Origin: Beroe forskalii
Lineage: Eukaryota; Ctenophora; Nuda; Beroida; Beroidae
NCBI GenBank assembly: GCA_011033025.1
Contig: WFMF01000011.1
Span: 1,202,688 to 1,266,687, forward strand
Reading direction: 5' to 3'
Length of the DNA stretch: 64,000 nt
This document shows positions 9,196 to 57,290 of this stretch, piece by piece (the stretch's first letter is position 1; the number at the start of each line of letters is the position of its first letter). A program made the position numbers and the translations under genes. The notes under the pieces were generated by a model. It made no database searches. It saw only the letters and a list, made by a program, of their open reading frames with translations, and had not been told where the DNA came from.

Positions 9196-12100
9196 ATGAG
9201 ACTACAGCAGGGGGACTTGCTGTTCAACATTAAATCATGGGTACTCCTTCTCTCTCCTATGCTTCTCTTTGCATGTGGTTCAGTGTCAGCAGATGGTAAT
9301 ACTAATGCGTATAACATTTCTACTTCAAGTCTTGAGGGAAGCAACACAGCAAACAATTTGACATCTGAAAACACCACTGGGATTGTTAATAATCAGCATG
9401 ACATTAGCTCCAATGAAAGCCAATCTAACAAAAGTGCTAGTGATAAGACAGCAATTGTGCACATATCTGAGTCAAAGTTATCGGGGAAGGCTGGAAAAGA
9501 ATCAGAAAACATTGTTAGTGAACAAGATTTAAAGGAAAATCCTGCATTTGATATCAATAAACTTTTCAAAACTAAACCTCCATCACACAAGGTACGATTT
9601 TGATAGATGTTAATACTTTAATACTTTATTGTCAAAACGCAATATAACGCTAAGTATAAAGTATAATGATCATACTTTTGTTGGCCGTAAATATTGTGTA
9701 CAAAATCAAAAAAGAATGTATACGTTGATATGAATTGTTGATACGTTGATATGAATTGTAAACTATGTATTGATGAAGGTCATACGAGCCCATTACTCAT
9801 ACTGCGGGAGCCCTCCGGGAGTACTGCGGGAGTACTGCGGGTGTACTCCGAGAGTCCTTCGGGAGTACTCCGAGAGTCCTTCGGGAGTACTCCGACAGTC
9901 CTCCGGGAGTACTCTGGGAGTCCTCCGGGAGTCCCCCGGGAGTACCTCGGGAGTCCTCCGGGAGTCCTACGGGAGTACCCCGGGAGTCCTTCGGGACTAC
10001 CCTGGGAGTCCTACGGGAGTACCCCGGGAGTCCTACGGGAGTACCCCGGGAGTACCCCGAGAGTCCCCCGGGAGTCCTCCGGGAGTCCCCCGGGAGTCCT
10101 CCGGGAGTCCTACGGGAGTACCCCGGGAGTCCTACGGGAGTACCCCGGGAGTCCTACGGGAGTACCCAATAGCTCCAGGTGAGCCCAACAACCCAATAGC
10201 TCCTTGTGAGCCCAACAACCCAATAGCTCCAGGTGAGCCGAACAACCCAATAGCTCCATGCTAGCCCAACAACCCAATAGCTCCAGGTGAGCCCAACAAC
10301 CCAATAGCTCCATGCGAGCCCAACAACCCAATAGCTCCAGGTGAGCCCAACAACCCAATAGCTCCAGGTGAGCCCAACAACCCAATAGCTCCAGGTGAGC
10401 CCAACAACCCAATAGCTCCATGTGAGCCCAACAACCCAATAGCTCCAGGTGAGCCCAACAACCTAATAGCTTCTTGTGAGCCCAACAACCCAATAGCTCC
10501 AGGTGAGCCCAACAACCCTATAGCTCCATGCGAGCACAACAACCCAATAGCTCCAGGTGAGCCCAACAACCCAATAGCTCCAGGTGAGCCCAACAACCCA
10601 ATAGCTCCAGGTGAGCCCAACAACCCAATAGATCCATGTGAGCCCAACAACCCAATAGCTCCAGGTGGGCCCAACAACCCAATAGCTCCTTGTGAGCCCA
10701 ACAACCCAATAGCTCCAGGTGAGCCCAACAACCCAATAGCTCCTTGTGAGCCCAACAACCCAATAGCTCCAGGTGAGCCCAACAACCCAATAGCTCCTTG
10801 TGAGCCCAACAACCCAATTGCTCCATGTGAGCCCAACAAACCAATAGCTCCTTGTGAGTCCAACAACCCAATAGCTCCATGTGAGCCCAACAACCCAGTA
10901 GCTCCATGTGAGCTGAACAACCCAATAGCTCCAGGTGAGCCCAACAACCCAATAGATCCATGTGAGCCCAACAACCCAATAGCTCCAGGTGGGCCCAACA
11001 ACCCAATAGCTCCTTGTGAGCCCAACAACCCAACAGCTCCAGGTTAGCCCAACAACCCAATAGCTCCTTGTGAGCCCAACAACCCAATAGCTCCAGGTGA
11101 GCCCAACAACCCAATAGCTCCTTGTGAGCCCAACAACCCAATTGCTCCATGTGAGCCCAACAAACCAATAGCTCCTTGTGAGTCCAACAACCCAATAGCT
11201 CCATGTGAGCCCAACAACCCAGTAGCTCCATGTGAGCTGAACAACCCAATAGCTCCATGTGAGCACAACAACTCAATAGCTCCAGGTGAGCCCAACAACC
11301 CAATAGCTCCATGCGAGCCCAACAACCCAATAGCTCCAGGTGAGCCTAACAACCCAACAGCTCCAGGGGAGCCCAACAACCCAATAGCTCATTGTGAGCC
11401 CAACAACCCAATAGCTCCATGTGAGCCCTTCGACCCAATAGCTCATTGTGAGCCCACATTCCATAACTCAATAGCTCCAAGTAAGCTCAACAACCAATTA
11501 GCTCCAGGTGAGCCCAACAACGCAAAAGCTCTATGTTACCCAACAACTCAACTGCTCGATCTAACCCCAAAAACTACATTTGAGCAAAATTACCCAAGAG
11601 CCCCATCTGAGCTCAACTACCCAAGAGCTTCGTGTGATTCACAAGTACCCTACACCCCTCAAACTCATCCATTTACAAAACTGCTTCCAGTTTTAATCGA
11701 AACAGATCACCATGGTCATTGGCTATTGGCAACACCCCACTATCTTTTGTAAGTGGGGTGGGTGGAGAATAACAGTGTTATCCTCCTCCCCAAGAACCAT
11801 GACATGGGAGCCCAACATCTCAATAGCTCCATGAGAGCCCAGCAACCTAATACCTAGCTCCATCAAACCAAACAGCTCCATATCTGCATTTAGCCCAACA
11901 ACCCAACAGCTCCATGTGAGCTCAACAACCAAATAGAACCATGCATCTCCCCAACAAACCAATAACTCCTCACTATTACAAAACTGCTGCCAGTTATAAT
12001 CTACCTATATCAGGTCACAGTTTTTGGCAACACTCTACTTTCTTTTCGAAGTGGGGGTGGGTGGAGAATAACAGAGTTGTTCTCTGCCCCAAGAACCAAG

Positions 12101-14677
12101 ACCTGGAAGCCTTTGCTCCAAAAACCAGCTGTTTCCAGTGAACACATGAATAATATTGTGTACTGAAAAACGCAGCATTGTTACACCATATGACATTAAC
12201 ATAATAACTTCGCACATTAAACAAAAACAGAAAAATGCATGCACCAAAGTTTGCTTCCAACCTGGTACAAATCTTTTAAAAATGGCCTTACAAATTTACC
12301 AAATTTAACAATTTACCAAATCAACATTAATGATATACAGTAACCTCTTTGTCAATGAAAATTTACGACAAACTTTATTGATATATCAAAAAATCATTGC
12401 ACACCAATTTCTTTAAACTGGGACGTTTTAAACTAATCATTCCCCTGAAACCAGTGGATGATAAGAATTCAGTTATTAAGTTATTAGAAACGGACAACAC
12501 ACCATCACTCATAGAAGAAACACAAAATATTAAGCTGTCCCAGCATTTGAGTCAACCAAAAAACCATTCTTATAGATAGTAGACATAAATATTGCGATGA
12601 AACCTACTTGAGAGTTCATCAATAAAACACAAAAAGCCTGCCATACGGCACACGCCAAAAAAGATATGAAAAAGGACTTTGATAGTGGATACCTCATCAC
12701 ATGAAGTAATAACAACATGGATAACATCAAATGCAATTAAGCACACCCTACCGTCAATGTAATCGGCGAACTGCACAAATAACAAATTAACTGACAAAAA
12801 GCAAGGTAACTCATAATTATGAGTTACAGTATGCACTAAAACATCAGCTTAAAAATATGGAAGTACTGATCATGGAAAATGCCTCCTTCATTAGGTAAAC
12901 AATGGATCATCGAAAATGAAACAAGAAAGAACTAAATTATATAACCACCAACATTATGTGAAAAGTAAGCAAAAGAAATCTAAGTACGTTGATGCCAATG
13001 ATAGTCGACCAGAGAACACTGCTCGGAGGACGGAGACGCTTTAGTAATAACATAGTAAACTTCCTCATTCTTGAGCCTGAACAAAACACACTTTTTCGAT
13101 TTCAAAAAGAGCCTCAAGGACAGGAGCTTCACAAGGCAGCTGCCTCAAGGCAGGAATACACAAAAATATAAACAAACCAAAAAAGGGGGATTCACTCTGT
13201 TTGCCCAATAATGAGAAACATGACTCAGGACATTCTTTCCCATTACTTGTCCAAGAAATAAAGAAGAATGGGAGGAGAAGATTTGGTTGCTTCATCGCCT
13301 CAAAAAGAAGCAAACCGTATTTATTCGGCTCAAGTTGAACAGACAGATAACTGCTTGAGTTGGGGCCATTGGGGTCTATTACCCAATTGGAGAACAATTT
13401 TCTGTATAGATATCTGTCCTCTACCTACTATATAGACTATTAGTTATGCCAACATATCAGCCAAACCGCGACCGTTGCCTCTCAGACTATGAGGGGCCAT
13501 GTCGTATGGCACAGCGCCTCCGCGGAAGCGCATTTTACCTACCTACCTACCTACGGGAGTACCCCAGGAGTCCTATAACGGGAGCTGGAGTACGCCGGGA
13601 GGACCCCGGGAGTCTCCCGTAGGACTCCTGGGTGCTCCCGGGGTATTCCCGCGGTACTCCCGTAGGACTCCCAGGGTAATCCCGTAAGACTTCCGCAGGA
13701 CTCCCAGGGTAATCCCGTAAGACTCCCGGGGGACTCCCGGGGTACAACCGTGGTACTCCCGTAGGACTCCCGGGGTACTCCCGTAGGACACCCGGGGTAA
13801 TCCCGTAAGACTCCTGGGGTACTCCCGTGGTACTCCCCCAGGACTCCCGGGGTAATCCCGGGGTACTCCCGGGGGACTCTAGGATTGCTCCCGTGGTACT
13901 CCCGTAGGACTGTCGGAGAACTCCCGGGGGACTCCCGGGGTACTCCCGTAGGACTCGCGGGGTACTCCCGGCCGGACTCTAGGATTGCTCTCGTGGTACT
14001 CCCCCAGGACTCCCAGGGTACTCCCGTAGGACTCCCGGGGGACTCTAGGATTGCTCTCGTGGTACTCCCCCAGGACTCCCAGGGTACTCCCGTAGGACTC
14101 CCGGGGTACTCCCGGGGGACTCTAGGATTGCTCCCGTGGTACTCCCGTAGGACGGTCGGAGAACTCTCGGAGTACTCCCGTACGACTCCCGTGGTACTCC
14201 AGTAGGACTCCCGTGGTACTCCCGGGATACTCCCGCAGTACTCACGGAGGGCTCCCGGAGGCGGGAGGACTCCCGGGAGTCTCCCGCAGTAATTCGCTCG
14301 AAGTCGAAACAAGTTAAGGGTCAGGCTGGGAGCTGAAGAATTCACTTAAGAAATATTTTAAAGGACAAGCATTACATTATGCATGATTGGAAATTGTACA
14401 TACCATAGCAATGAGTTCACCATTGACCTGATTTCGTAAACTCTAATTTTCCCTTTTCTATGGTTTCTTCCCCTATTTTTTCAACGTTCCGTTGCAGGTA
14501 AAAGACCCTACGCTGTTGCAAAAAGACGAGGTGAAGGTTATAACAGATAAAAAAGTCGATGATGAGGGAGACAAATCAAAGCAAATTACCAATCGTGATT
14601 CGAGTGAGGAAGCTGATAATAAAACAGAGTCTAAAACCATCGAGTTTGATTTGGATAATCACGATGAAAAAGACTGA
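9196..14677 (+). CDS. Secreted low-complexity N-glycosylated protein, 2 exons, 191 aa
   Basis: Exon 1 is 9196-9591 and exon 2 is 14498-14677. The donor is AAG|GTACGA and the acceptor follows a long pyrimidine tract (TTGCAG|GTA); both junctions are phase 0. The ATG at 9196 was chosen because it opens a signal peptide: a polar start, then hydrophobic SWVLLLSPMLLFACG, then SVSADG as likely cleavage region. An in-frame ATG lies 30 nt upstream. The mature protein is rich in Ser, Asn, Lys, Glu and Asp, with several N-glycosylation sequons (NIS, NLT, NTT, NES, NKS, NKT) and an acidic C-terminus ending DNHDEKD. No known domain was recognised and no function is proposed. The gene model rests on the signal peptide, matching composition of the two exons and splice phase. 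Its intron is mostly minisatellite. Confidence 0.72.
9804..10166 (+). repeat. 11-bp minisatellite (GGGAGTMCYMC), forward block
   Basis: About 33 tandem copies of an 11-bp GGGAGTCCTAC / GGGAGTACCCC unit in the intron of the secreted-protein gene. Long ORFs through it translate as degenerate Gly-Val-Leu-Arg-Glu repeats and are not genes. The same unit reappears inverted at 13553-14295. Confidence 0.9.
10167..11570 (+). repeat. 27-bp minisatellite with recurrent 5'-splice-site-like CAGGTGAGC
   Basis: About 50 tandem copies of a 27-bp unit: AACAACCCAATAGCTCC, then AGG, TTG or ATG, then TGAGCCC. Roughly 20 copies have the CCAGGTGAGC form, which on the host gene's sense strand matches CAG|GTGAGC, close to the metazoan donor consensus. 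Units decay towards the 3' end (11450-11640), with scattered remnants near 11800-11940. The 100-270-residue ORFs on the minus strand are repeat translations. Confidence 0.95.
11640..12110 (+). repeat. Tandem duplication of about 320 bp beside the minisatellite
   Basis: CAAAACTGCTTCCAGTT...GGCAACACCCCACT...GTGGGTGGAGAATAACAG...CCAAGAACCATGAC (11678-11800) recurs with changes at 11979-12100. The remainder of this intron, 12111-13548, shows nothing recognisable apart from a short CCTA run near 13540. Confidence 0.65.
13553..14295 (-). repeat. 11-bp minisatellite, inverted block
   Basis: About 67 copies of ACTCCCGTAGG / ACTCCCGGGGT, the reverse complement of the unit at 9804-10166. It lies in the same intron, about 200 bp upstream of exon 2. 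Together the blocks form an inverted repeat that could pair in the nascent transcript. Confidence 0.9.
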
Positions 14678-20865: not shown

Positions 20866-21960
20866 TCCGGAATATCACATCTGAAAGAGAAATATGCGAT
20901 AACTCTTTAAAGCTATTTAGGTGATGCGATAATTCAGTCCTTTCAGTGACTTATCATAATTTTATAATAGCAGCACAATACCACACATGCGATCTCTATC
21001 GCACTTTTTTACCTACATTAAACATCGTATAATAAACAGTAGAAGTAAATAACTACTTACTATTAGTTATTGTAGTGGAAAAAGTTGCAAACTATTTTAA
21101 TGTTCATCACAAAATCAATGTTTATTTCAGATTTGCAGAAGGAAAATACATCTCACACTGCAGCACCAAAGTCATATATTTCATGCGAGATAACCTGCAC
21201 GACATTTAAAGTCAAATAATCGCACGAGCGCAGCACAGTCTCTTCACTGCCAAGTTCTAGGCTGGGTACTGGATAATACGGATATTGCAGAACGCAAGTA
21301 TTTGTACTTGAAGAGCTGATAATGTGGTTGGTCCGTGCGAGCTCTTTTTCTTAATAATCTCTAAAAGATATGCCACTCGTATCAGTGCACATGAAATACA
21401 CTGAGTTTTGCTAAGAGAGTTGAGGAAACTCATGTTACGAGGCCCGTAGTGCGGTATACAATGTCTGGTTGAGACGTTATAAGTCACGTAATCACGTATA
21501 ATGTCTGGGTGAAGTGAGACAAAGTCACGTACGCTGCACACTGTGCAGTGAGACCCACGCGTGTCTCACTCGCCTGTCTCCGCTGAGTCTGATGGTGTTG
21601 AGGTGTCGAAGTCTCCGACGTGTACGTAGCAGGAGACCCCGCCGGCTGCCAGGCAACCCGGACCCCACGCCACACTGTGTATCGCTTTAGCGTCGTAAAA
21701 CACGCCCTCAACCACCTCTGTGTCGCTGTTTATTATCTGAGAGAACGAGAATTTAACTATTTTAATTTATTTAATTATTTATATAGATATTTATTTAGCT
21801 ATCTATATAGCTACTAATTTATTTAGTGTCATCATATTCAGATAGCGCTCATATGAGATAAATGATTATAAATAAGTATCTCATGTATAAATAATACTTG
21901 GGATTGAGTTTGTCAAAAACGATCTTATAGGATGATTATTGTGTATTTAGATGCAAATAT
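20866..21960. other. Region 3' of the WD40 gene; nothing recognised
   Basis: AT-rich with a TTTA/TATA simple stretch around 21760-21840. A further 3' exon of the WD40 gene could lie here, but none could be identified. Confidence 0.4.
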
Positions 21961-24900
21961 TTATCGCATTTTAAGAGAATAGACACCACCCAATGAGTTT
22001 TGCCACCATTGTGCAGCATACAAACCCACCTTAGCATCGTTAGAACCTGATCCTCCTGCAAATATCCTCTTGGAATCCACGAACTTGCAGGAATAAAGGT
22101 ACTCGGCGTGGTTGTCATTCTCTTTGTACTTCACGGATTTAATGAGCTTCCCGCTCCCTAGGTCCCACAGCTGAAAAGAGCGGAATTTGCTGTCAAATTA
22201 AACGATTTCATACAAATTTAAATTACAAAGTGATGATGCATCAAATGGGTTCGCCTTATAGATGAAAATTTCACGAGAATTTAAGGCTGGCTTACAATTC
22301 TTCAATGGCCCTCTTTTAAGAAATTAATGGATTATAGAACTACTCTGAATTCCACGAAGGATGTCCAAAAAGTACGCTTCATCACCTAATTTGGGACAAT
22401 ATTCCTGGACGCAAAACATGTACATTTAGAATACCTGTAGAGCGTTCTCTATGCTGAGTGAGGCGGTGACACACTTGTCTCCCATCACGTCCACACCGTC
22501 CCCACACACTTTGGGGCCCTTGAAGGTCCTCACAGCAGCCTTCTCCGGCTCCATTCTGATATCCCACAGGAAGACCGCTCTGTGGAATGGAGGAGGGTTA
22601 CTGTTTGAGTTTGTGATGAAGTTTGGGAGCCAGTGGCTAGAAAGGACCAACTGGATGGTTTGGTTTGGAGCGCCAGTAATTTTACTGAAATCATTTGAAT
22701 CTTTCTTGAGCTTGACTTCACACGATTTCCCAAGCATGTCGATAGTGTCAAACGCTCTTTGAATTCTTAATTAAAAGTGAATCTTTGTTTAAAGGCAAAG
22801 AGATGTTTAAAAGTCATTTTGCAGGCACGATACCAATTTATACCACCTGCCTCCCAAAGTTTCAAATATACTCCATTATGCACATTGCACATATTCACTA
22901 TTCTTAAATATAAAATAAGAACTGTAGTGTTGTTCACACAAGCGTTTAGCATAAATATCTATTATGCAGCTTACAACAAAGCGGACCATTAATCTCGCAA
23001 GGAAGTGTCACAGCATTAGGCGAGCGTGGTTTTGTGTCAGTGAATTACCTGTCCCACCCTGCTGAAACACACTGGTAGGGGTTCTCAGGACGGAACTTGA
23101 TGGCGCTAACTCGCTGCTTGTGCGCATATTCCTCCTCCTCGTCATACTCCTCCGCAACACGACCCACATCCCTCACATACTCCATCCTGTTAGCGTCTAT
23201 CACCTGCAGTATACAGCCCTGTTAGCGTCTATCACCTGCAGTATACAGCCCTGTTAGCGTCTATCACCTGCAGTATACAGCCCTGTTAGCGTCTATCACC
23301 TGCAGTATACAGCCCTGTTAGCGTCTATCACCTGCAGTATACAGCCCTGTTAGCGTCTATCACCTGCAGTATACAGCCCTGTTAGCGTCTATCACCTGCA
23401 GTATACAGCCCTGTTAGCGTCTATCACCTGCAGTATACAGCCCTGTTAGCGTCTATCACCTGCAGTATACAGCCCTGTTAGCGTCTATCACCTGCAGTAT
23501 ACAGCCCTGTTAGCGTCTATCACCTGCAGTATACAGCCCTGTTAGTATATACAGCCCTGTTAGCGTCTATCACCTGCAGTATACAGCCCTGTTAGCGTCT
23601 ATCACCTGCAGTATACAGCCCTGTTATACACCGGGCAGCCCTGTTAGCGTCTATCACCTGCAGTATACAGCCCTGTTAGCGTCTATCACCTGCAGTATAC
23701 AGCCCTGTTAGCGTCTATCACCTGCAGTATACAGCCCTGTTAGCGTCTATCACCTGCAGTATACAGCCCTGTTAGCGTCTATCACCTGCAGTATACAGCC
23801 CTGTTAGCGTCTATCACCTGCAGTATACAGCCCTGTTAGCGTCTATCACCTGCAGTATACAGCCCTGTTAGCGTCTATCACCTGCAGTATACAGCCCTGT
23901 TAGTGTCTATCACCTGCAGTATACAGCCCTGTTAGTGTCTATCACCTGCAGTATACAGCCCTGTTAGCGTCTATCACCTGCAGTATACAGCCCTGTTAGT
24001 GTCACCTGCAGTATACAGCCCTGTTAGCGTCTATCACCTGCAGTATACAGCCCTGTTAGCGTCTATCACCTGCAGTATACAGCCCTGTTAGTGTCTATCA
24101 CCTGCAGTATACAGCCCTGTTAGCGTCTATCACCTGCAGTATACAGCCCTGTTAGCGTCTATCACCTGCAGTATACAGCCCTGTTAGCGTCTATCACCTG
24201 CAGTATACAGCCCTGTTAGCGTCTATCACCTGCAGTATACAGCCCTGTTAGCGTCTATCACCTGCAGTATACAGCCCTGTTAGCGTCTATCACCTGCAGT
24301 ATACAGCCCTGTTAGCGTCTATCACCTATACAGCCCTGTTAGTATCACCTGTATACAGCCCTGTTAGTGTCTATCACCTGCAGTATACAGCCCTGTTAGC
24401 GTCTATCACCTGCAGTATACAGCCCTGTTAGTGTCTATCACCTGCAGTATACAGCCCTGTTAGCGTCTATCACCTGCAGTATACAGCCCTGTTAGCGTCT
24501 ACTATCACCTGCAGTATACAGCCCTGTTAGCGTCTATCACCTGCAGTATACAGCCCTGTTAGCGTCTATCCTGCAGTATACAGCCCTGTTAGTCTATCAC
24601 CTGCAGTATACCCCTGTTAGCGTCTATCACCTGCAGTATACAGCCCTGTTAGCGTCTATCACCTGCAGTATACAGCCCTGTTAGCGTCTATCACCTGCAG
24701 TATACAGCCCTGTTAGCGTCTATCACCTGCAGTATACAGCCCTGTTAGCGTCTATCACCTGCAGTATACAGCCCTGTTAGCGTCTATCACCTGCAGTATA
24801 CAGCCCTGTTAGCGTCTATCACCTGCAGTATACAGCCCTGTTAGCGTCTATCACCTGCAGTATACAGCCCTGTTAGCGTCTATCACCTGCAGTATACAGC

Positions 24901-27900
24901 CCTGTTGCCTGTCACCTGCAGTATACAGCCCTGTTAGCGTCTATCACCTGCAGTATACAGCCCTGTTAGCGTCTATCACCTGCAGTATACAGCCCTGTTA
25001 GCGTCTATCACCTGCAGTATACAGCCCTGCCCTGCAGTATACAGCGTCTATCACCTGCAGTATACAGCCCTGTTAGCGTCTATCACCTGCAGTATACAGC
25101 CCCTGTTAGCGTCTATCACCTGCAGTATACAGCCCTGTTACAGCCCTGTTAGTATACAGCCCTGTTAGCGTCTATCACCTGCAGTATACAGCCCTGTTAG
25201 CGTCCCCTGTTAGTTGCGTCTATCACCTGCAGTACAGCCCTGTTATCGTCTATCTGCAGTATACAGCCCTGTTAGCGTCTATCACCTGCAGTATACAGCC
25301 CTGTTAGTGTCTATCATCACCTGCAGTATACAGCCCTGTTAGCGTCTATCACCTGCAGTATACAGCCCTGTTAGCGTCTATCACCTGCAGTATACAGCCC
25401 CTGTTAGTGCTGTCTATCACCTGCAGTATACAGCCCTGTTAGCCCTGTTAGCGTCTATCACCTGCAGTATACAGCCCAGCCTATACAGCCCTGTTAGTCT
25501 ATCACCTGCAGTATACAGCCCTGTTAGCGTCTATCACCTGCAGTATACAGCCCTGTTAGCGTCTATCACCTGCAGTATACAGCCCTGTTAGCGTCTATCA
25601 CCTGCAGTATACAGCCCTGTTAGCGTCTATCACCTGCAGTATACAGCCCTGTTAGCGTCTATCACCTGCAGTATACAGCCCTGTTAGCGTCTATCACCTG
25701 CAGTATACAGCCCTGTTAGCGTCTATCACCTGCAGTATACAGCCCTGTTAGCGTCTATCACCTGCAGTATACAGCCCTGTTAGCGTCTATCACCTGCAGT
25801 ATACAGCCCTGTTAGCGTCTATCACCTGCAGTATACAGCCCTGTTAGTGTCTATCACCTGCAGTATACAGCCCTGTTAGCGTCTATCACCTGCAGTATAC
25901 AGCCCTGTTAGCGTCTATCACCTGCAGTATACAGCCCTGTTGGCGTCTATCACCTGCAGTATACAGCCCTGTTAGCGTCTATCACCTGCAGTATACAGCC
26001 CTGTTGGCATCACCTGCAGTATACAGCCCTGTTAGCGTCTATCACCTGCAGTATACAGCCCTGTTAGCGTCTATCACCTGCAGTATACAGCCCTGTTAGC
26101 GTCTATCACCTGCAGTATACAGCCCTGTTAGCGTCTATCACCTGCAGTATACAGCCCTGTTAGCGTCTATCACCTGCAGTATACAGCCCTGTTAGCGTCT
26201 ATCACCTGCAGTATACAGCCCTGTTAGCGTCTATCACCTGCAGTATACAGCCCTGTTAGCGTCTATCACCTGCAGTATACAGCCCTGTTAGCGTCTATCA
26301 CCTGCAGTATACAGCCCTGTTAGCGTCTATCACCTGCAGTATACAGCCCTGTTAGCGTCTATCTATCACCTGCAGTATACAGCCCTGTTAGCTATCACCT
26401 GTATACAGCCCTGTTAGCGTCTATCACCTGCAGTATACAGCCCTGTTAGCGTCTATCACCTGCAGTATACAGCCCTGTTAGCGTCTATCACCTGCAGTAT
26501 ACAGCCCTGTTAGCGTCTATCACCTGCAGTATACAGCCCTGTTAGCGTCTATCACCTGCAGTATACAGCCCTGTTAGCGTCTATCACCTGCAGTATACAG
26601 CCCTGTTAGCGTCTATCACCTGCAGTATACAGCCCTGTTAGCGTCTATCACCTGCAGTATACAGCCCTGTTAGCGTCTATCACCTGCAGTATACAGCCCT
26701 GTTAGCGTCTATCACCTGCAGCCCTGTTAGCAGCCCTGTTAGCCCTGTTAGCGTCTATCACCTGCAGTATACAGCCCTGTTAGCGTCTATCACCTGCAGT
26801 ATACAGCCCTGTTAGCGTCTATCACCTGCAGTATACAGCCCTGTTAGCGTCTATCACCTGCAGTATACAGCCCTGTTAGCGTCTATCACCTGCAGTATAC
26901 AGCCCTGTTAGCGTCTATCACCTGCAGTATACAGCCCTGTTAGCGTCTATCACCTGCAGTATACAGCCCTGTTAGCGTCTATCACCTGCAGTATACAGCC
27001 CTGTTAGCGTCTATCACCTGCAGTATACAGCCCTGTTAGCGTCTATCACCTGCAGTATACAGCCCTGTTAGCGTCTATCACCTGCAGTATACAGCCCTGT
27101 TAGCGTCTATCACCTGCAGTATACAGCCCTGTTAGCGTCTATCACCTGCAGTATACAGCCCTGTTAGCGTCTATCACCTGCAGTATACAGCCCTGTTAGC
27201 GTCTATCACCTGCAGTATACAGCCCTGTTAGCGTCTATCACCCCTGCAGTATACAGCCCTGTTAGCGTCTATCACCTGCAGTATACAGCCCTGTTAGCGT
27301 CTATCACCTGCAGTATACAGCCCTGTTAGCGTCTATCACCTGCAGTATACAGCCCTGTTAGCGTCTATCACCTGCAGTATACAGCCCTGTTAGCGTCTGC
27401 ATCACCTGCAGTATACAGCCCTGTTGTTAGCGTCTATCACCTGCAGTATACAGCCCTGTTAGCATCACCTGCAGTATACAGCCCTGTTAGCGTCTATCAC
27501 CCCTGCAGTATACAGCCCCTTAGCGTCTATCACCTGCAGTATACAGCCCTGTTAGCGTCTATCACCTGCAGTATACAGCCCTGTTAGCGTCTATCACCTG
27601 CAGTATACAGCCCTGTTAGCGTCTATCACCTGCAGTATACAGCCCTGTTAGCGTCTATCATCACCTGCAGTATACAGCCCTGTTAGCGTCTATCACCTGC
27701 AGCCCTATATCACCTGCAGTATACAGCCCTGTTAGCGTCTATCACCTGCAGTATACAGCCCTGTTAGCGTCTATCACCTGCAGTATACAGCCCTGTTAGC
27801 GTCTATCACCTGCAGTATACAGCCCTGTTAGCGTCTATCACCTGCAGTATACAGCCCTGTTAGCGTCTATCACCTGCAGTATACAGCCCTGTTAGCGTCT

Positions 27901-30900
27901 ATCACCTGCAGTATACAGCCCTGTTAGCGTCTATCACCCTGCAGTATACAGCCCTGTTAGCGTCTATCACCTGCAGTATACAGCCCTGTTAGCGTCTATC
28001 ACCTGCAGTATACAGCCCTGTTAGCGTCTATCTATCACCCCTGTTAGCAGTATACAGCCCTGTTAGCCCCTGCGGTATACAGCCCTGTTAGCGTCTATCA
28101 CCTGCAGTATACAGCCCTGTTAGCGTCTATCACCTGCAGTATACAGCCCTGTTAGCGTCTATCACCTGCAGTATACAGCCCTGTTAGCGTCTATCACCTG
28201 CAGTATACAGCCCTGTTAGCGTCTATCACCTGCAGTATACAGCCCTGTTAGCGTCTATCACCTGCAGTATACAGCCCTGTTAGCGTCTATCACCTGCAGT
28301 ATACAGCCCTGTTAGCGTCTATCACCTGCAGTATACAGCCCTGTTAGCGTCTATCACCTGCAGTATACAGCCCTGTTAGCGTCTATCACCTGCAGTATAC
28401 AGCCCTGTTAGCGTCTATCACCTGCAGTATACAGCCCTGTTAGCGTCTATCACCTGCAGTATACAGCCCTGTTAGCGTCTATCACCTGCAGTATACAGCC
28501 CTGTTAGCGTCTATCACCTGCAGTATACAGCCCTGTTAGCGTCTATCACCTGCACAGCCCTGTTAGCGTCTATCACCTGCAGTATACAGCCCTGTTGAAG
28601 TCTATCACCTGCAGTATACAGCCCTGTTAGCGTCTATCACCTGCAGTATACAGCCCTGTTAGCGTCTATCACCTGCAGTATACAGCCCTGTTAGCGTCTA
28701 TCTCTATCACCTGCAGTATACAGCCCTGTTAGCGTCTATCACCTGCAGTATACAGCCCTGTTAGCGTCTATCACCTGCAGTATACAGCCCTGTTAGCGTC
28801 TATCACCTGCAGTATACAGCCCTGTTAGCGTCTATCACCTGCAGTATACAGCCCTGTTAGCGTCTATCACCTGCAGTATACAGCCCTGTTGGCGTCTATC
28901 ACCTGCAGTATACAGCCCTGTTAGCGTCTATCACCTGCAGTATACAGCCCTGTTAGCGTCTATCACCTGCAGTATACAGCCCTGTTAGCGTCTATCACCT
29001 GCAGTATACAGCCCTGTTAGCGTCTATCACCTGCAGTATACAGCCCTGTTAGCGTCTATCACCTGCAGTATACAGCCCTGTTAGCGTCTATCACCTGCAG
29101 TATACAGCCCTGTTAGCGTCTATCACCTGCAGTACCTGCAGTATACAGCCCTGTTAGCGTCTATCACCCTGCAGTATACAGCCCTGTTAGCGTCTATCAC
29201 CTGCAGTATACAGCCCTGTTAGCGTCTATCACCTGCAGTATACAGCCCTGTTAGCGTCTATCACCTGCAGTATACAGCCCTGTTAGCGTCTATCACCTGC
29301 AGTATACAGCCCTGTTAGCGTCTATCACCTGCAGTATACAGCCCTGTTAGCGTCTATCACCTGCAGTATACAGCCCTGTTAGCGTCTATCACCTGCAGTA
29401 TACAGCCCTGTTAGCGTCTATCACCTGCAGTATACAGCCCTGTTAGCGTCTATCACCTGCAGTATACAGCCCTGTTAGCGTCTATCACCTGCAGTATACA
29501 GCCCTGTTAGCGTCTATCACCTGCAGTATACAGCCCTGTTAGCGTCTATCACCTGCAGTATACAGCCCTGTTAGCGTCTATCACCTGCAGTATACAGCCC
29601 TGTTAGCGTCTATCACCTGCAGTATACAGCCCTGTTAGTCTATCACCTGCAGTATACAGCCCTGTTAGCGTCTATCACCTGCAGTATACAGCCCTGTTAG
29701 CGTCTATCACCTGCAGTATACAGCCCTGTTAGCGTCTATCACCTGCAGAGTATACAGTAACCCTGTTAGCGTCTATCACCTGCGGTATACAGCCCTGTTG
29801 GCGTCTATCACCTGCAGTATACAGCCCTGTTGGCGTCTATCACCCCAGTATACAGCCCTGTTAGCGTCTATCACCTGCAGTATACAGCCCTGTTAGCGTC
29901 ATATGCAGCCCTGTTAGCGTCTATCACCTGCAGTATACAGCCCTGTTAGCGTCTATCACCTGCGGTATACAGCCCTGTTAGCGTCTATCACCTGCAGTGT
30001 ACAGCCCTGTTAGCGTCTATCACCTGCAGTATACAGCCCTGTTAGCGTCTATCACCTGCAGTATACAGCCCTGTTAGCGTCTATCACCTGCAGTATACAG
30101 CCCTGTTAGCGTCTATCACCTGCAGTATACAGCCCTGTTAGCGTCTATCACTGCAGTATACAGCCCTGTTAGCGTCTATCTCACCTGCAGTATATATCAC
30201 CTGCAGTAGCCCTGTTAGCGTCTATCACACCGGTATACAGCCCTGTTACATCACCTGCATCACCTGCAGTATACAGCCCTGTTAGCGTCTCACCTGCAGT
30301 ATACAGCCCTGTTAGCGTCTATCACCTGCAGTATACAGCCCTGTTAGCGTCTATCACCTGCAGTATACAGCCCTGTTAGCGTCTATCACCTGCAGTATGC
30401 TACAGCCCTGTTAGCGTCTATCACCTGCAGTATACAGCCCTGTTAGCGTCTATCACCTGCAGTATACAGCCCTGTTAGTGTCTATCACCTGCAGTATACA
30501 GCCCTGTTAGCGTCTATCACCTGCAGTATACAGCCCTGTTAGCGTCTATCACCTGCAGTATACAGCCCTGTTAGCGTCTATCACCTGCAGTATACAGCCC
30601 TGTTAGCGTCTATCACCTGCAGTATACAGCCCTGTTAGTGTCTATCACCTGCAGTATACAGCCCTGTTAGCGTCTATCACCTGCAGTATACAGCCCTGTT
30701 AGTGTCTATCACCTGCAGTATACAGCCCTGTTAGCGTCTATCACCTGCAGTATATACAGCCCTGTTAGCGTCTATCACCTGCAGTATACAGCCCTGTTAG
30801 CGTCTATCACCTGCAGTATACAGCCCTGTTAGCGTCTATCACCTGCAGTATACAGCCCTGTTAGCGTCTATGCAGTATATCACCTGCAGTATACAGCCCT

Positions 30901-33900
30901 GTTAGCGTCTATCACCTGCAGTATACAGCCCTGTTAGCGTCTATCACCTGCAGTATACAGCCCTGTTAGCGTCTATCACCTGCAGTATACAGCCCTGTTA
31001 GTGTCTATCACCTGCAGTATACAGCCCTGTTAGTGTCTATTACCTGCAGTATACAGCCCTGTTAGCGTCTATCACCTGCAATATACATTTTCTGAGCTTA
31101 TGATTCAGTCTATCTCATATTACGTATAAAAATCCCTTTTTAATGCCCTTCATGTAACGAATGCCTGACCTGGATTCGTCTGTTATCGAGAGCGCAGACA
31201 TGGTAGCTGGGAGAGGTGTCTAAGGAGTAGATGGCATTTTCCAGATCTACTTTGGAGGTCTCCACCAGTCCTGCTTCCTCCTCCAGCTTGTAGGTCTGGA
31301 TAAGACCGTCAGCTGTTCCTGTAATGATGAACTGATACATGTGTGCGTCTGCTACTGCTATTTTAGCTTCCCTTTGAGCTTAATGAGCTACGTACAAATT
31401 CTTCCACTTTTTCAAATTTTTAAAGCTCTAAATCGTTTTTCATATCAATCTGATCAAACTGATTTATAACTTTTATGAGGCTTCTCGGGCCACAATGAAG
31501 AACTTATACCTACCACAAATCATAAGCTTGAATTTCAAATTATTACCAAACTGTGTTGATGTAAAAACTACTTAACCACGTTTTATACAAACGTACCTGC
31601 TACAATTCGGTGATGGTCGGAATCAACGTGGTCCCGAATACTGGTTACAGGCATATTCTCAGGGGATGGCTGAAGTTTAAAACGCATGGTCAAAAGTTTG
31701 ATACTTTGATACAATAAATTGTAAAATTCAAATGAATTGAAAATAATTTTTAGGGCACGACCAAATCAATGCCAATCATATCAGTTAATAATCCTGAAAG
31801 GGATTCAATGAGTCCTGAATATGCTTCAATTTTGAGGCAAGCATATGATTATGAATACAATCTTTAAAACATCCGATTCCTTACTTTCAATTTCAAAGAA
31901 TATGAATTTCAGTTTGAATTTCAGCCGTTTTCGTTTGTGTTAACCGTACCTGAGCAGTGTAGGACCGTTTGGTAGTCTTGAAGTTGTGAACATTAATCTT
32001 TCCGTTGCCGAAGCCTAGGGCCACCTCGGTGGTGCCTTGTAGGAAGTGCATGCTGTAGAGCCCGACAGCTTGGGAGGCCACGTAGATCTGTCTCTTGGTG
32101 GTGATGGCGTCTGTAGGGGGCACCAGTCTGCCGGCCATCATCTCAGCAGTGAGGGCGTGCTTCCTCTTGTAGAGGTCCGGGAACAGCACCGACATGTCCA
32201 CCTGGGGGTGGAAAGGGTTAGAAGCTGTAATGGATGGGGCAGAGGGTTCAACAGAACCTAGAGGGAATTTAGGGTTAGGGTTAAGAGGAGGGTTCGGGGA
32301 TAGAAAGGGACTTGGGGATCAGAAGGGGTTATGGGTCCGCCTTAGTTAGGGTAGAACAGGGGCTATGGGGTCAGAGGAAGTAATTATGCCTTAGGGCTTA
32401 AGAGTATAGGGAGCGAGATAAGAGCGGTCTTGAGTTCATAATGAAAGTATTAGGTCGTATTTCATTTTCAATGAATAAAATTGCAGAGGTGTGAAATGTA
32501 GGAATTTTAAATTATTTAAAAAAAAACAGACAAAGAGTTGAATTTTTGCAATTAGGCATCGTCACATGTTACGTTAGGTGATTACGCAATACGTGAATAA
32601 TCCCTTAGTATTGGAATTTTCCTCCTGCTCAACCATTTTTCTAGGCATTTTACATTTACCAACTCCAAGTCCTTCCGCTGATTCTTTGAAAATGGCTATA
32701 ATTGAGACTGCTTTCTCTTTCTTTTAGCTCTGAACAAAAATTGACTGAATTCGAATAAAAATTAACCAAACCATTCATGTTAGTGCAAGTTACTTTTAAA
32801 TAATTTTCATTGTTCATCTGGCGACTGGGACACAGCTTCCAACCAATTGTTTGCTTTATAAATTTGGGGAACAGGAGTAATGATCTAGTCAACTTGAATT
32901 GAACTCGCAATAGACAAGGGTAGTGCAGGGTTGCACAATCACCTGTATTCCTGTAACCTGGTTCTGGGGAGGAATGGGACATTATTTTAAATTTGAGTGA
33001 ATTATATAGCCTAAAATCCTAGTAAGCCAGTTATAAAGTCAGTAGCAGCCAGCAAAATTTTTAACCCTTTGCTGTCGCCTGCCTTGCCCGCCACGGAATT
33101 TTGGATGCATAAATATTTAAAACCTTAAATAGCGAAATAAATCAATTTGTGCAATTCTGGTAAAAAGGTTAAAAACCTGGGAAACACTCAGGCCAGTTAC
33201 ACAATAGCTCAAAAGTATCATGTCACTTTATAGCAATGTTTGGAAATTCTCCGATCTTTCAATGCACATTTTGGGCACGCTTCAGGCAGAAAGCTCAAGG
33301 AGCACGTGGGCAGAAACACCTCGGTCACACTCGAGGGCGGAAGGCAAACCTGGAGCAGAGTATGGGCACTATAGGCAGTAGGCATTCTGATGACCAAAGC
33401 CACGATCCAATAAACTGCATTGCTGCAAGACCTTTACAATAGCACAATGACCAGGAAGGTAGTTCTTTTCCTGTTGCTCACCTTCATTGAGGCAGATGAA
33501 ATGGGAATTGACTAGAAGAGGGGGTGGCGATACTTTACCCCATGCTATACTTTGCTCGGGTTCAGAATTTTTCAGCTCCACAGTATCGGTTGGAACCTGA
33601 CTGCCAATTGTCAAGGCATTCAGGCAACAACAAATGCTTAGTGAGAACTGCGAGCGAAGGGTGGAAGGGGAACATGAACAGTTAGGGAGTTCAGCTGGGT
33701 TCATGCCTGGTTATTTTCAGCCCTGAACCCCCCAATAACAGTTACCGTGGGGTAGTGAGCGAAGGGTGGGTGTAGAGAGGAGGTGGAACCACGGCGAGCA
33801 GGCTTCATGTTTCAGCGACAAATCACAACCCAATACTAAGTTACATTCGATCTGAAGTTGGTCATAGCTCCATACGACGCCTGTGTCATGCACTATCATC

Positions 33901-36900
33901 AGCATGGTAGAGTAAGGAGAGTAAACACAAGTAAAATTCATAAATTCCCAATGACAATTATTGTTAACGGTCATCTATTGCATGTTTATGGAAGACGTTT
34001 CAAACGGAAAAAGACGATTGGATTAGTGAAGGTTAACCGAAAACCCAATCTCGCGTAATATTTTGGCCATAACTGATCTACTTCTACATTTCACGCAGTC
34101 AATCACTGATCCTAAATGTCATGTTGCCATTAGATAATGCCCCGGTACAAAACACAATACCTTAATAATATACGACAGTTTTCAAAGCATGATGTGTTAC
34201 ACACACACTCTTCAACTACATTTTGTCGATGTTAGAATTTGAGGATGGCAGCAGAAGAAGCAATATCTGCCATCATGACACGACGATGATACGATGGCAC
34301 CTGCTAATTACATGAAACATTTGCTAAAATCCGGTAAAACTAACGTGCGGCGCTGGCGTGCCACATGTCGGATGTCGAGGATATGAACTGCTGGTGCTGC
34401 TTGATCGATTAGAGCGCCGTGTTCAGAGTGAGAAGTAAGATTGCTTGCTGATACTCATATTAAGGTCTTATGATGTTTACAATGTGTTGTCATATTATAG
34501 CTAACATTATACAGCACATTGGAGTTTAACTAAAGACACGGGCTCAATAGAGGACGGTGCCCCTGCTACCTAAACATGCCTTAATGAGGGGTTATAGGAA
34601 CTACATCGGTAGTTCAAAAAACAATATTTAATGTAAGATGGAAATCGGTATGAACATTTTGGTATGTTCAATGTGACAAAAGGGCACGCGCACCAAACGA
34701 CGATGGGCTTCACATGCCATCTGGGATCTGGCTCTCGGTCAGCCAGCGAGTAACTAATCATTAATCAGGACAGTTGGCCGAAGGGATTGCTTTGAGAAAT
34801 AATGGAAAAATCCAGATGATATGCATAGATAATATGATGGTCCTTAGAATCATTACAATCTTAGACAAATTCGCAAAATTTAAAATTGAAGAAAAAACTT
34901 AATAAGAATAAAACTCACCCTTGACCATGCTGAGGTGGTTGGCTGCGGTCTCTGAAACACAAACTGCTGCACTTTTCCCCATTTACTCTTCCGTTTCAAC
35001 ATTTCGTCTGGGAAAAGTGTACAGATTCAAGAAATTGACAGTAGAATAATATAACTAAGTTATCAACTGAGATATTACAATTGCTGAGTAGTTCAATAAA
35101 TAAATATGAATTCATTTCAACTTTTCCGATTATTCGGTCTCGAATGCTTTCCCTGACAGCAAAGAAAAGCTTGCTTCACCAATGTTTTCAGCACGGGATA
35201 AAGCAGTAATCTGGTCAAAGCTGTAAAAAATCAACGAATTTCAAGAAAAATTAGATAGGTAGATAATATTCGAAAATTTTTCAGTGTCCATTCTCCTACA
35301 ATTATTATGTCTACCATTTATCATTGTCCAACCACAAAATTTCTTATGCAATAAACTTCTTCGACTTATGTAGAACAATTGAAATAACAAAAGAACATTG
35401 TCAGGTTTTACGTTATCCTATACAGAGGGGTTTACATTACAATACAGATAAGAATAGGATGAAAACACCCTATCCACTTACAGTCAAAGCAAAGAAAAGA
35501 GTAAACTTAGAAGGAGTAGAGATAGAACCAGTTGGTATCTGCTATAACAGACAACTGTCAACCACCGTAGGATCGTCAGTCATATTATTATATGTTGGAG
35601 TTTAGACTACACGTATGCGAATATTATATGCATAGAGATATATGAGATATTTAGCTCTAGCATGAATATGTCTTAGAACGGACATTGACGAACCAATGAT
35701 TACCTAATTCTATCTGCCAACCCATCCACATTTTGATGTTTACCTACGTACTACACACCAGTAAAACAGGTTCTCTTCTCAAGAAACTTTTTGGAATTAT
35801 AATATGTTAGTCAGCTGAAAGGTTCTTATAATTTTCTTGAATGATTCTTGATCGCAAATTTTTCTACTCCTTTTCTCATTCCTAAGAGGGAGTACGGGCA
35901 AAAGAAAATCTAGGCTATAAGTTTCTGAATTGCACGGTAAAAAGTAGGAATTTTATTAACCATCACTAATAAGCAATTTAATGACATTTGGATCTCATTC
36001 GGTAAATTATGCTCTCAGTCAACGTACACACCGATCGGTCCCAGTCAGTTTCATTACTTCATGACACTATGAACAGTCGACCCACGGCTCGTATTTTAAG
36101 AACAACACCAATCACCAGGATTGGAATCAGGATGGGGGGATCTATTTTATGACATGATGTCAGACCGTAAATTTACCAGACAGATTGAATTCTGGGAATT
36201 TGACCTCTGACAGCCATTTATTGAGACCCCTTCATATCGCGAGACTTCCTAGAGGCTAGACTTCATAGTGCTACAGTTGTACTATGAGATCTACAGGTGA
36301 GCGTATTAAGGGGGGTTCACCCCTCGAATTTTGGAAAACACGAATTTGAGATATGAGTTGACCAGGATGGCCGGGGCGTGTACCAACATTTTGAGAGCCA
36401 AAATCCCCGAGGCCTAACTCAAAATTTTGGTCAATAACATGAGTTCGAAATTAAGTTTCAAAGCGATTCTGAAATTTCATGCAGAAACAATAAAAAATGG
36501 CGGAGGAGAAGCGAAAAGAGTAAAGTCCATTTGGGCAAAAACGCAAACTGAGATATAAGCGATTTAGTGGATTTTTGAAGGTTTTTATGGGCTGAAATGG
36601 CCAAATAAGGTCTGATTCACATTAGAATTGGTTTGCCCATCAATTTTGACCTAAATGATGGGCAAAACATGTTTGAAGCTTATATCTCCAAAAATGTGGC
36701 CAAAATGGCCATCTTTAGGCCCAAAATAGGCCAACTGCCACTTTGGCGCGCGCGCTTCGCATGCCCATAACTTGGCCATTTGTCATCCAAAGCTCAGCTC
36801 TATCTCTATCAGGTAAAGTTTCGATTTTTGGACGCCATTTTTGCTCTGAGGCCTCACATGGGCAATGTTGGACCTATGGACTCAAGACCACCGTCGAAAT

Positions 36901-42900: not shown

Positions 42901-45900
42901 GGACACGTTAATACGTCCTATGACATGGTAATGATGGAGCCAACCTGGAGACATGTTGGTAAACACAGGTTTCAAAACACATAGGATTCAAGACATGCAT
43001 GGGATCCAAGACAAGAATAAGATTCAGGACATCATAAGAAATTGAGATTTTCATTCGCTCATGCGTTCTGAGTGCAATGTGGCCACTGGTCATCATTACC
43101 CTCATAACTGAACATGCAAAACCAGCACTCAAAAGCAGAAACAAAGGAGGAGGAGGAGGAGGAGGAGGAGGAGGAGGAGGAGGAGGAGGAGGAGGAGGAG
43201 GAGGAGGAGGAGGAGGAGGAGGAGGAGGAGGAGGAGGAGGAGGAGGAGGAGGAGGATTACTAGTATGTGTACTCATAGGTTGAAAGCAACAGGTCGAAAA
43301 GTAGGTCAAAAGGGCTCAATAAATACCCTTATATGGCTTCGCAATTGCATACCGGCATCCAGCCACTTCTCTCTGCTGCACACAGCACTGTTAATGTTGC
43401 TGATGTGATATACCACTGAGGCACTGGAGACCACTGCACAAGTCCTTCCTTCATCTTTTCACGAGTTCTATCAGGAGTTCTATCAGTGAACCTGCGGTTC
43501 ACAACTTCACGCCCTATCGGAGTATCAGGAGAATCAGTGAACCTGGTTTCCACCCTACTGAAACAAAGTTTTGGAACTCCTCAATATCGTGGCTGCTGCT
43601 TCGAAGCCACTTTTACTAGACACAGAACTCTACTCCTTACAATCTAAATGAGGTAACAATTAATTGTAACTATCACTGACACCTTGGATCAGGTGGCACG
43701 GAGCATCTGGTTCATCATCTCTCACGCGAACCACTTCATTGGTTCCCACATCACGTCCAAACACCATCACTGTTGTCATCTTTTCCTGCCAACTTGACTG
43801 TAGCTTACACTTGCGTTTTCCTCTCCTTAACTCCTCAAATAGTCAAATCCCTACTTAACAACATCACTGAAATTTCCATGATCCCACTCTTCACACATCC
43901 ACGCAATCTGCTCAGATTCGGTTGTCTCCTAAAGTTCATCTTAGATAGTACCTTACGAGACAAATTTATAATTATATGGTGTGAAATTTGGGGAAATCTC
44001 CGAAAAATATCCCCCATATTTTCGTTTCCCAAAAAAATAAATATGACGTCATCATCATACGTTAACATGTGTAATATTCCAGACAATATCCTCAAATTTC
44101 GTACCCCGCCCCCCCCCCATTTTGATCCCCAAAAGTATTGATCCACGTTACTTTTTCTCGTAAGGTAGATCATTTGCGGTTTCAGGATGTTTTTCTGGTT
44201 CTCAATCAATTCATTCCATAACAGCTGACAGCAACCAGAGTCTCTATGCTTCTTCCTAAAGCATGGAGACTGACAAAACAAGATCTGACAGAGTTACTTT
44301 GTCACACTTTATAACAGCTTTCTTGCTGACCTCTCCCAAACAGAGAACTGGAAAAAGGGGGTCATATCTTTCTTTTACAGTAAGCAGCGACGATTGCATT
44401 TGATGTGCACTACATTATACGACGTGGTGCACATAGAGTAGTTGCTGAGTTGTGGTTTACTGGTTTACCGATAACACGCATTAGCAAGTATAGGATTTAG
44501 GATAAGTAAAGGATTCAATACAATCATAGAATTCAAGACATCTGTTGAATTCAAGACTTGTACAAGGTTCAAGACATGTAACATGTTTAGGATTCAAAAG
44601 ATACATAGAATAAAGGACGGCTATTGAGTGGTTCAAGGTGGCCTAATTTAATGATTAAGTGAAAATATGAATTTTTGAAATTTGAAAATCGTCATTTTTG
44701 ACCATTTTTGGGACAGGAGCCAACTTTGAAAATTCATATTTTCACTTCTGAGGCCTAAATCAAAAATCGGCTCGCATGAAAGTTTTGTTTTATGCCCTAG
44801 AACATTACTACCAAGTTTCAAGGGTTTTACTCAAAAGCTGTAGGAGGAGATAGATTTTAAAGTTCATTTTCGGCAAATCGCGTCGTAAGTTCGCGCGTGC
44901 ACTGTAATTACAGGCGAAATCGCGATTTGAAAAATTCATAACTTCGGCTAGAAACAATATTTTTTGATGCGGTAAAAACCTACTGGTAGCTGGCGTTCAG
45001 CTCTATCAGAAACAACAAAAAACTGAAAATTGACCTCAGACCCCCCCCGACCCCCTTAAGTAGCTTGTGGAATTACCTGGCACTTTACGCAAACAGACGA
45101 ATTATTATTTGATATCAAAAGATCAAAGGTAAGTTATTCGAACTCAATCTTAACTGGGTAGGGTAATAAGTTACAACGAATCGTACAATCGGACAATTAG
45201 CTTGTAACAAAGTGAACGGATAAAGAATCGAAAAACCGATCAAGCCTTCTTTTCTCCCGAAAAAGATTAAAATACCTACGGCTAATGGAGTTTTAGCTTA
45301 ATGCTATAAGTTTGTTGTTAAGCTGATGATGTATTAAAAAGTTACGCTAATTTAAAAAGAATATAAACTATCAAGGCTTATACGACGGCGTCCATAACAA
45401 TCGGAAAACAACTGCTAGATCATCTTTGGATGAAGTCCAGAGCGGAACTTTCCAATTATAGATATCAGATACCATTGAAATCACGAAACTAGCCGTAAAC
45501 GTGCTTACACTGCCTCATTATTTGAAACGAAGACGATAATCAAGTGTAGCAATGGTGGACGATAATAATAATCATGATATGAAATGATATCTTGTTTAAA
45601 CTCGGCGTACAGCAGTAACGTGCACTGTTTTATATATCAATCACTGCTCTCAATGCACGGGCTATGGGCGTAGGAAAGTGACACTGCTGTCTGGGTTAGG
45701 AGAAGTGAGTTGATGACGTCAAACTGGCCATGTTCCGTGGGTAGGGTATATAATCTAGCTAGTGTATTTGAGGGAAATGTAATGCAGTATCTTCCACTCC
45801 AATCACGCGCCAGTTTACCGCCCAACATGTGGTTATACACGGTGTCTTACTTTACACAAACACGAGGTTGTTACAGAGTTACATGGAATCATGCTCCAAT

Positions 45901-55409: not shown

Positions 55410-55645
55410 GGTGGGGGAATGCAAAGGGACGTGAGGGGAAGTGATCATAAGGTGAGGGGAAGTGGGTAATGAAGCAAGGGGAAGTGAAGCCGAGGGGAAG
55501 ATGGTGTGATGGGTAGATGGGAGATGGGTTGAGGGGAATTAAGGTGAGGAGATTTTAGCTGGGGGGAATCAAGGTGAGGGGAAGTAAGCTGAATGGATGT
55601 AAAGTGAGGGGAATTAACTAATTACGATGAGGGGAAGTATGATTG
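55410..55645 (+). repeat. Degenerate GTGAGGGGAAGT repeat, left block
   Basis: About 12 diverged copies of GGTGAGGGGAAGT or GGTGAGGGGAATT. The last part, GAATTAACTAATTACGATGAG, is repeated on the other side of the ORF (near 57136), so the ORF-bearing segment may have been inserted into this array. Confidence 0.75.
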
Positions 55646-57117: not shown

Positions 57118-57290
57118 AGCACTGAATGGTGAGGTGAATTAACTAATTAAGGTGAGAGGAAGTGAGGTGAGGGGAAGTAACTTGATGAGATGTAAGGTGA
57201 GAGGAAGTGAGGTGAGAGAAGTATCAATTAAGGCAAAAGGTGAGGTTTGAGGGGAAAGTAAGGCGACAATTACTTATAGAGGTGGGGCAT
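57118..57290 (+). repeat. Degenerate GTGAGGGGAAGT repeat, right block
   Basis: Continuation of the block at 55410-55645 on the far side of the ORF, with GAGGTGAATTAACTAATTAA at its start mirroring the end of the left block. Confidence 0.7.

Follow-up and report, generated by a model that had tools for sequence, protein, structure and literature searches.

It has long been asked how the correct splice site is told apart from identical ones, and the question is raised in an extreme form by a locus of the ctenophore Beroe forskalii (GenBank assembly GCA_011033025.1, contig WFMF01000011.1, forward-strand positions 1,202,688 to 1,266,687). This stretch of 64,000 nucleotides (nt), called the window here, is the last 64 kb of its 1.27-Mb contig, and coordinates are window positions unless marked otherwise. 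On its minus strand lies a WD40 gene, one intron of which is filled by a 32-bp minisatellite whose unit joins the acceptor of that intron to the beginning of the next exon. An earlier sequence-only reading of this DNA had noticed the arrangement and knew of no described system of this type. The observation is confirmed; the array is probably an extreme case, by size, of a kind already known, the host phylum is probably new for it, and further members probably lie near by. Our preferred interpretation, to which we give a probability of roughly 0.72, is that the array is a giant acceptor-type "mirage" minisatellite (the name given to border-spanning repeats of amphioxus genes), that its expansion has been tolerated, and that the exon-proximal acceptor is the one used.

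Read on the minus (sense) strand, the host intron runs from 31169 to 23204 (23204..31169, 7,966 nt, GT..AG, donor CCAG|GTCAGG) between exons E3 and E4. Tandem Repeats Finder (TRF) reports a 32-bp tandem array at 23186-31087 with 244.9 copies. The unit, GTGATAGACGCTAACAGGGCTGTATACTGCAG, is composed of GTGATAGACGCTAACAGG, the initial 18 nt of E4 (23186..23203, minus strand, encoding VIDANR according to the homologue alignment and the open reading frame), a GC filler, and the 12-nt acceptor TGTATACTGCAG; it is thus the duplicated 3' splice site plus exon start that had been proposed. The exon-proximal copy of TGTATACTGCAG occupies 23204..23215 (minus), and its TGCAG, the final one, abuts the exon at 23203. 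At the other end, the last base of the first TGCAG is position 94 of the intron (31076 in the window). The array-free part of the intron (31076..31169, minus) is therefore 94 nt long, as had been estimated, and it ends in the outermost acceptor TGTATATTGCAG (last base 31076), which matches the unit acceptor at 11 of 12 positions. From the inner side of this outermost acceptor to the last acceptor (23204..31075, minus) the distance is 7,872 nt, or 246.0 x 32, and the earlier figure of about 246 unit lengths stands. The array has swelled the intron approximately 85-fold, from 94 to 7,966 nt.

With the last acceptor counted, the intron contains 238 TGCAG acceptors, and the exact string TATACTGCAG|GTGATA occurs at 206 places, an identity over 16 nt. 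The locus is in this respect a natural test of splice-site choice. The exact 32-mer unit was found 179 times in the window and in none of 100 shuffles; the count in the entire 216-Mb assembly (1,134 contigs) was also 179, which indicates that the exact unit, diverged copies and stretches outside the count aside, is private to this locus. A search of the window against Rfam gave no match.

The gene itself is otherwise intact. Eight exons, E0 to E7, all on the minus strand and supported by homologues and by the open reading frame (ORF), have matching phases and join into an ORF of 389 amino acids (aa). They are E0 at 34919..35002, with the start codon (MLKRKSKWGKVQQFVFQRPQP); E1 at 31950..32201; E2 at 31597..31669; E3 at 31170..31318 (149 nt, acceptor ATTACAG|GAACAG, ending NRRIQ in phase 0); E4 at 23049..23203 (155 nt, donor ACAG|GTAATT); E5 at 22435..22579; E6 at 22030..22170; and E7 at 21566..21736, with the stop codon. 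The upstream exon had earlier been placed at 31170-31348; this was wrong, since homologues put the start of E3 at ATTACAG|GAACAG, that is, at 31318.

A protein search with the gene product returned 14 matches at E <= 0.01. The best of these, P0001, had 85% identity over 97% coverage and is encoded on a 1,516-nt sequence of source "lgn", the size of which suggests a spliced transcript. Further matches at 65% comprised two of source "jgi" and one hypothetical protein named Mnemiopsis leidyi; two turtle proteins came next, at 29% identity. By these matches the organism would be a ctenophore, probably one other than Mnemiopsis. The PDB matches shown were WD40 proteins such as WDR5 and RACK1, and Pfam WD40 (PF00400) scored above its cut-off (36.3 vs 27 bits). 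A 110-aa piece searched alone had no homologues. In the alignment, seven other sequences read RRIQ|VIDA without intervening residues, joining Q directly to V; of the homologues that read across E3|E4 with no residues added, five do so at 89-97% coverage and a sixth at 51%. The exons flanking the array therefore belong to one gene, as had been claimed, and a start of E4 elsewhere is ruled out because the homologues fix it. To the idea that the gene model is wrong, with the array being coding or lying outside the gene, we give almost no credence, given that homologues run directly across the junction.

The reading frame singles out one acceptor. E3 was joined to each TGCAG in turn with the remainder of the array retained, and a full ORF resulted from 1 of 238, the last, with the exon starting at 23203. 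That only the last acceptor keeps the frame had been stated before and is upheld. Each of the other 237, used alone, truncates the protein, with a stop within 32 codons; for 184 of them the stop comes 11 codons after E3, and the unit in the frame of E4 reads VIDANRAVYCR*. When every AG in the intron was considered, 2 of 744 led in frame to the true stop, one being the last acceptor and the other an AG that lies 15 nt farther upstream and would add five codons. A coding, in-frame array was rejected on the same grounds, 32 not being a multiple of 3 and stops being present in the frame of the exon (184 of 238 at 11 codons).

The 237 truncating choices could also mean that in this individual the gene is crippled by the array, a recent expansion that would yield mostly premature stops and a weak or null allele. 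The copies differ little (47 substitutions over 7,872 nt), and the expansion may be too recent for an intact ORF to mean much. Nevertheless, the ORF is intact over all eight exons, a similar array with a Pfam-supported junction is present in a protease gene of the same contig (array (a) below), and work on amphioxus mirages suggests that they leave splicing undisturbed (PMC3087553, PMC3902484). We regard a crippled allele as very unlikely.

We favor instead a tolerated mirage. It would have begun as a short tandem duplication that took in 18 nt of exon, 2 nt of filler and 12 nt of acceptor across the intron-exon border, and slippage would have enlarged it to 246 unit lengths. The array may be neutral. 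Its growth could be tolerated because each added copy sits on the intron side: the mature mRNA would use the last, exon-proximal acceptor and the upstream copies would be removed with the intron. The last copy might be chosen most simply through exon definition, as a normal 155-nt exon with its donor follows only that copy, and upstream copies would head exons longer by 32n nt. A transcript mis-spliced at one of the upstream copies would carry CAG|GTGATA anew and could be spliced again farther downstream, and what remained could be degraded by nonsense-mediated decay.

Several points weigh against this interpretation. The last acceptor is weak, with a pyrimidine fraction of 0.50 compared to 0.67-0.92 in the other acceptors of the gene. 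The decoys share its sequence, and no mark in the site itself therefore sets it apart. Its use in vivo is what we infer from the reading frame and the homologues. Finally, 78 indel events against 47 substitutions, along with a 352-bp exact repeat, mean that the copy number may be partly a product of assembly.

The variation within the array bears on this last point. Wrap-around alignment to the unit gave 47 substitutions, together with 25 events of insertion and 53 of deletion. More bases have been deleted (396) than inserted (44), and "246" is therefore a length in units rather than a tally of intact units. The array could be real and its length an assembly product, the copy number having been inflated or scrambled; 78 indel events in a near-identical array would fit this, as would an exact repeat of 352 bp that includes a variant and is present twice, the longest among repeats not purely periodic. 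However, no kilobase-scale copied block is present, 352 bp being the maximum, and block duplication on that scale by misassembly was rejected for this reason. In addition, 13 of the 47 substitutions are G>A at the CpG of the unit, an excess that resembles true mutation; single-base events are few (5 of the 53 deletion and 10 of the 25 insertion events, or 15 of 78 indels overall), which we judge to be unlike typical read error; and the array lies inside a 1.27-Mb contig. An assembly-made length thus appears quite improbable to us. Taken together, these data suggest a real and recent expansion with slippage, for which the exact copy number is provisional.

The same substitutions speak to whether the array has a function. 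It could be a regulator in which the number of decoy acceptors tunes the amount of full-length mRNA. There are 192 places in the intron where a branch-point-like motif, acceptor and donor all resemble consensus, and allelic length may vary, as reported for other mirages (PMC3087553). On the other hand, the splice-site columns are unprotected: 31 non-CpG substitutions are spread over 30 columns, and 3 of them fall in the four columns of AG|GT, compared to approximately 4 expected. A fold of six units is merely mildly stable (z -1.83; 9 of 200 shuffles were equally good), which also led us to drop RNA structure as a means of hiding the inner acceptors. A regulatory role seems highly improbable.

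The 192 consensus-like places raise one further scenario, stepwise recursive splicing. An early acceptor would be taken, the resulting junction CCAG|GTGATA would serve as a donor, and the array would be re-spliced repeatedly until no acceptor remained downstream. The earlier reading took it that the spliceosome must choose the last of the near-identical acceptors; recursive removal would reach that copy in several steps instead. Since the array-free intron is 94 nt long, the first acceptor could plausibly be spliced early. TGCAG is followed by GT at 229 of 238 sites and by GTGATA at 216 of 238; 229 acceptors would thus recreate a GT donor, and self-correcting, stepwise splicing would be possible. 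The unit also contains CTAAC, which we take to be branch-point-like; its second A is 18 nt before the final base of the acceptor, and the motif occurs 237 times in the intron. Using a generic matrix, CAG|GTGATA scored 7.4 as a donor compared to 8.5 for the E3 donor CAG|GTCAGG and 5.0 to 10.5 for the other donors of the gene. If true, recursive removal would make early splicing mistakes repairable. However, E4 itself starts with GTGATA, and the recursive logic would skip E4 too. Recursive ratchet points have a good polypyrimidine tract before AG|GT, whereas the array acceptor lacks one (fraction 0.50). Moreover, the exon junction complex has been reported to suppress recursive splicing on constitutive exons (PMC8605326). 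We consider recursive removal unlikely, though still a serious contender.

Additional exon-edge arrays were found on the same contig. TRF on 264 kb of it listed 94 arrays with a period of at least 12 and at least 2.4 copies, and exon edges were inspected at 15 of these, selected for splice-like unit motifs or an eye-catching look. In 5 of the 15 the unit spans the edge of an open exon: the WD40-intron array and four donor-type arrays, (a) to (d). Array (a) (C110:1169337-1172826; L026:6650-10000, L027:1-139; minus strand; 41 bp x 87, 3.5 kb) repeats the end of a papain-type protease exon with its donor. The exon ends YWTLKN at AAGAACAG|GTAAGAGG, and the unit repeats that end, giving 83 AACAG|GT, 44 of them AACAG|GTAAG. 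The first donor joins the downstream exon as YWTLKN|SWGEDWGENGF, and the match to Pfam PF00112 (Peptidase_C1) goes from 4.8e-05 without the next exon to 8.6e-19 with it. Array (a) is the mirror test, with 83 AACAG|GT donors in place of acceptors. A general rule may be that the copy touching the exon is used, which would be the last acceptor in the WD40 gene and the first donor in the protease gene. Exon definition would produce such a rule even among sites that do not differ. If both genes are spliced normally, the cue is position relative to the exon and not the strength of the site.

The exons at the three remaining arrays are putative, being recognized by open frames and splice signals. Array (b) (C110:1042474-1043091; L013:9787 to L014:404; minus; 22 bp x 28.7) adjoins a coiled-coil-looking exon ending LEAK|GTATGT; its donor is CTAAG|GTATGT, and CTAAG|GT is present 22 times. 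Array (c) (C110:1179286-1179455; L027:6599-6768; plus; 57 bp x 3.1) adjoins an exon ending ATATACGCTCATG|GTAAGT. Its unit consists of the exon end CAGATATACGCTCATG|GTAAGT and approximately 40 nt of intron ending in the acceptor-like CCAACAG, and each unit therefore looks like a micro-exon. Array (d) (C110:1086554-1086822; L018:3867-4135; minus; 51 bp x 5.2) adjoins an open exon ending GGAAAAAG|GTGAGA, with donor AAAAAG|GTGAGA. Pfam gave no match for the exons of (c) or (d), and all matches for (b) were below curated cut-offs. If the frame is read on beyond the first donor, a stop soon follows in (a) and (b); in (d) the frame passes the second unit and then stops. The frame is open throughout (c), and the stop argument is inapplicable there.

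Exon-edge arrays are thus recurrent on this contig. Whether minisatellites concentrate at splice sites is a separate matter. The two longest of the 94 arrays (7.9 and 3.5 kb) are both of the exon-edge type, an after-the-fact observation. The best donor score of the unit reached p <= 0.05 in 16 of 94 arrays and p <= 0.02 in 8 of 94. Motif counts over the 94 arrays were compared to 300 random draws. MAGGTRAG was present in 4 arrays compared to 0.4 expected (0 of 300 draws reached 4), the relaxed AGGTRNG in 6 compared to 1.5 (1 of 300 draws), and MAGGTRW in 7 compared to 3.0 (10 of 300 draws). In the same comparison, AG|GT (17 vs 15.5) and the acceptor motif (5 vs 5.1) were not enriched, and control motifs were near their means (reversed donor, 1 vs 0.5; TGGA, 18 vs 17.8; GATG, 16 vs 16.9). 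At two of the four arrays with MAGGTRAG no exon is visible. Across the 264 kb, donor triplets numbered 10, 33 and 58 at three strictness levels with 0 at each for the reversed control; they derive largely from a pair of 27-bp arrays that lack a visible exon, and since single donor words are more frequent than control words, the triplet control is not a matched one. Given the mixed enrichment, the exonless arrays and the unmatched control, a hotspot of minisatellites at splice sites was set aside and is not claimed. It would be a further step to combine recurrence with recursion, such that exon-edge minisatellites recur in this ctenophore genome and their introns are removable by self-correcting recursive splicing, with hundreds of dual-specific units ratcheting to the copy at the real exon. 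We consider that combination rather unlikely.

Other repeats were noted in passing. One 27-bp minisatellite (ACCCAATAGCTCCAGGTGAGCCCAACA and variants) is present at two sites, window 10164-11551 and C110:1157878-1159484; many of its units contain CAGGTGAG, no adjacent exon was seen, and its variation is almost purely by substitution. Two arrays with an 11-bp unit resembling CGGGAGTACTC (period 11/22/33) and with long open frames lie approximately 3.5 kb apart at 9800-10163 and 13630-14258 in the window. A perfect AGG run of 37 copies is found at 43145-43256. Short 15-bp arrays of the AAGGTGAGG type, with a strong donor-like motif and no exon seen at their edges, lie about 1.5 kb apart at 55530-55617 and 57148-57223.

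The claim that no system of this type had been described is not supported. Among the literature matches listed, judged by titles and the openings of abstracts, none concerned such arrays in ctenophores, which is weak evidence that none has been published. In amphioxus, minisatellite-like repeats called mirages lie over exon-intron borders in Adh3, globins, TnC and PGBD5, and they occur in both types, acceptor-type in BflGb6 (the 3' end of an intron joined to the beginning of exon 2) and donor-type in BflGb9; regular splicing is believed to be unaffected by them (PMC3087553, PMC3902484). The BflGb6 mirage consists of 6 and 3 units, each of 150-160 bp, and that of PGBD5 has 2-7 units of 60 or 108 bp; the Adh3 mirage has units of 10-72 bp and shows somatic instability (PMC3087553, PMC3902484). 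Like these, the WD40 array has a unit that spans the exon-intron border of a gene, and the copy at the border is part of a genuine, conserved exon, with homologues aligning across the junction. Unlike them (2-7 units where numbers are given), it extends over 246 unit lengths of 32 bp and its host is a ctenophore.

Human genes offer partial parallels. In IFI6, a splice-site minisatellite has units with usable donors, and two downstream units are reportedly used as well, giving three mRNAs (PMC4526556); IFI6 repeats donors, whereas the WD40 array repeats acceptors. In UBC, the AG|GT in each repeat can be both acceptor and donor, and repeat and splicing are linked (PMC10809524). The WD40 array resembles such dual-specific sites in having AG|GT at its unit borders (229 of 238 TGCAG). 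However, UBC units are coding, 228 nt long and in frame, with variable products, whereas in the WD40 gene any other TGCAG truncates the protein. In duplicated human genes, expansion of border minisatellites can alter exon-intron structure and has been linked to new introns; there the units average 30 bp x 4 and alternative transcripts are common (PMC2812944).

Two models of splice-site renewal are also relevant. In Drosophila recursive splicing, a ratchet point of juxtaposed AG|GT regenerates the 5' splice site (PMC8605326). Those points are widely spaced in long introns, whereas candidate sites in the WD40 array recur every 32 nt or so, and a pyrimidine fraction of 0.50 is unlike that of a good ratchet point. 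In the model of Rogers, tandem genomic duplication of an AGGT segment yields new splice sites and intron gain (PMC3443670). In contrast, an existing intron has apparently been enlarged here, and no new intron position is claimed; the array is preceded by 94 nt of intron that end in an acceptor of their own, TGTATATTGCAG, which suggests that the intron is older. The closest counterparts of the WD40 array remain the mirages, and its presence in B. forskalii places mirage-like repeats outside amphioxus and suggests that repeats seeded at exon edges are tolerable elsewhere in animals.

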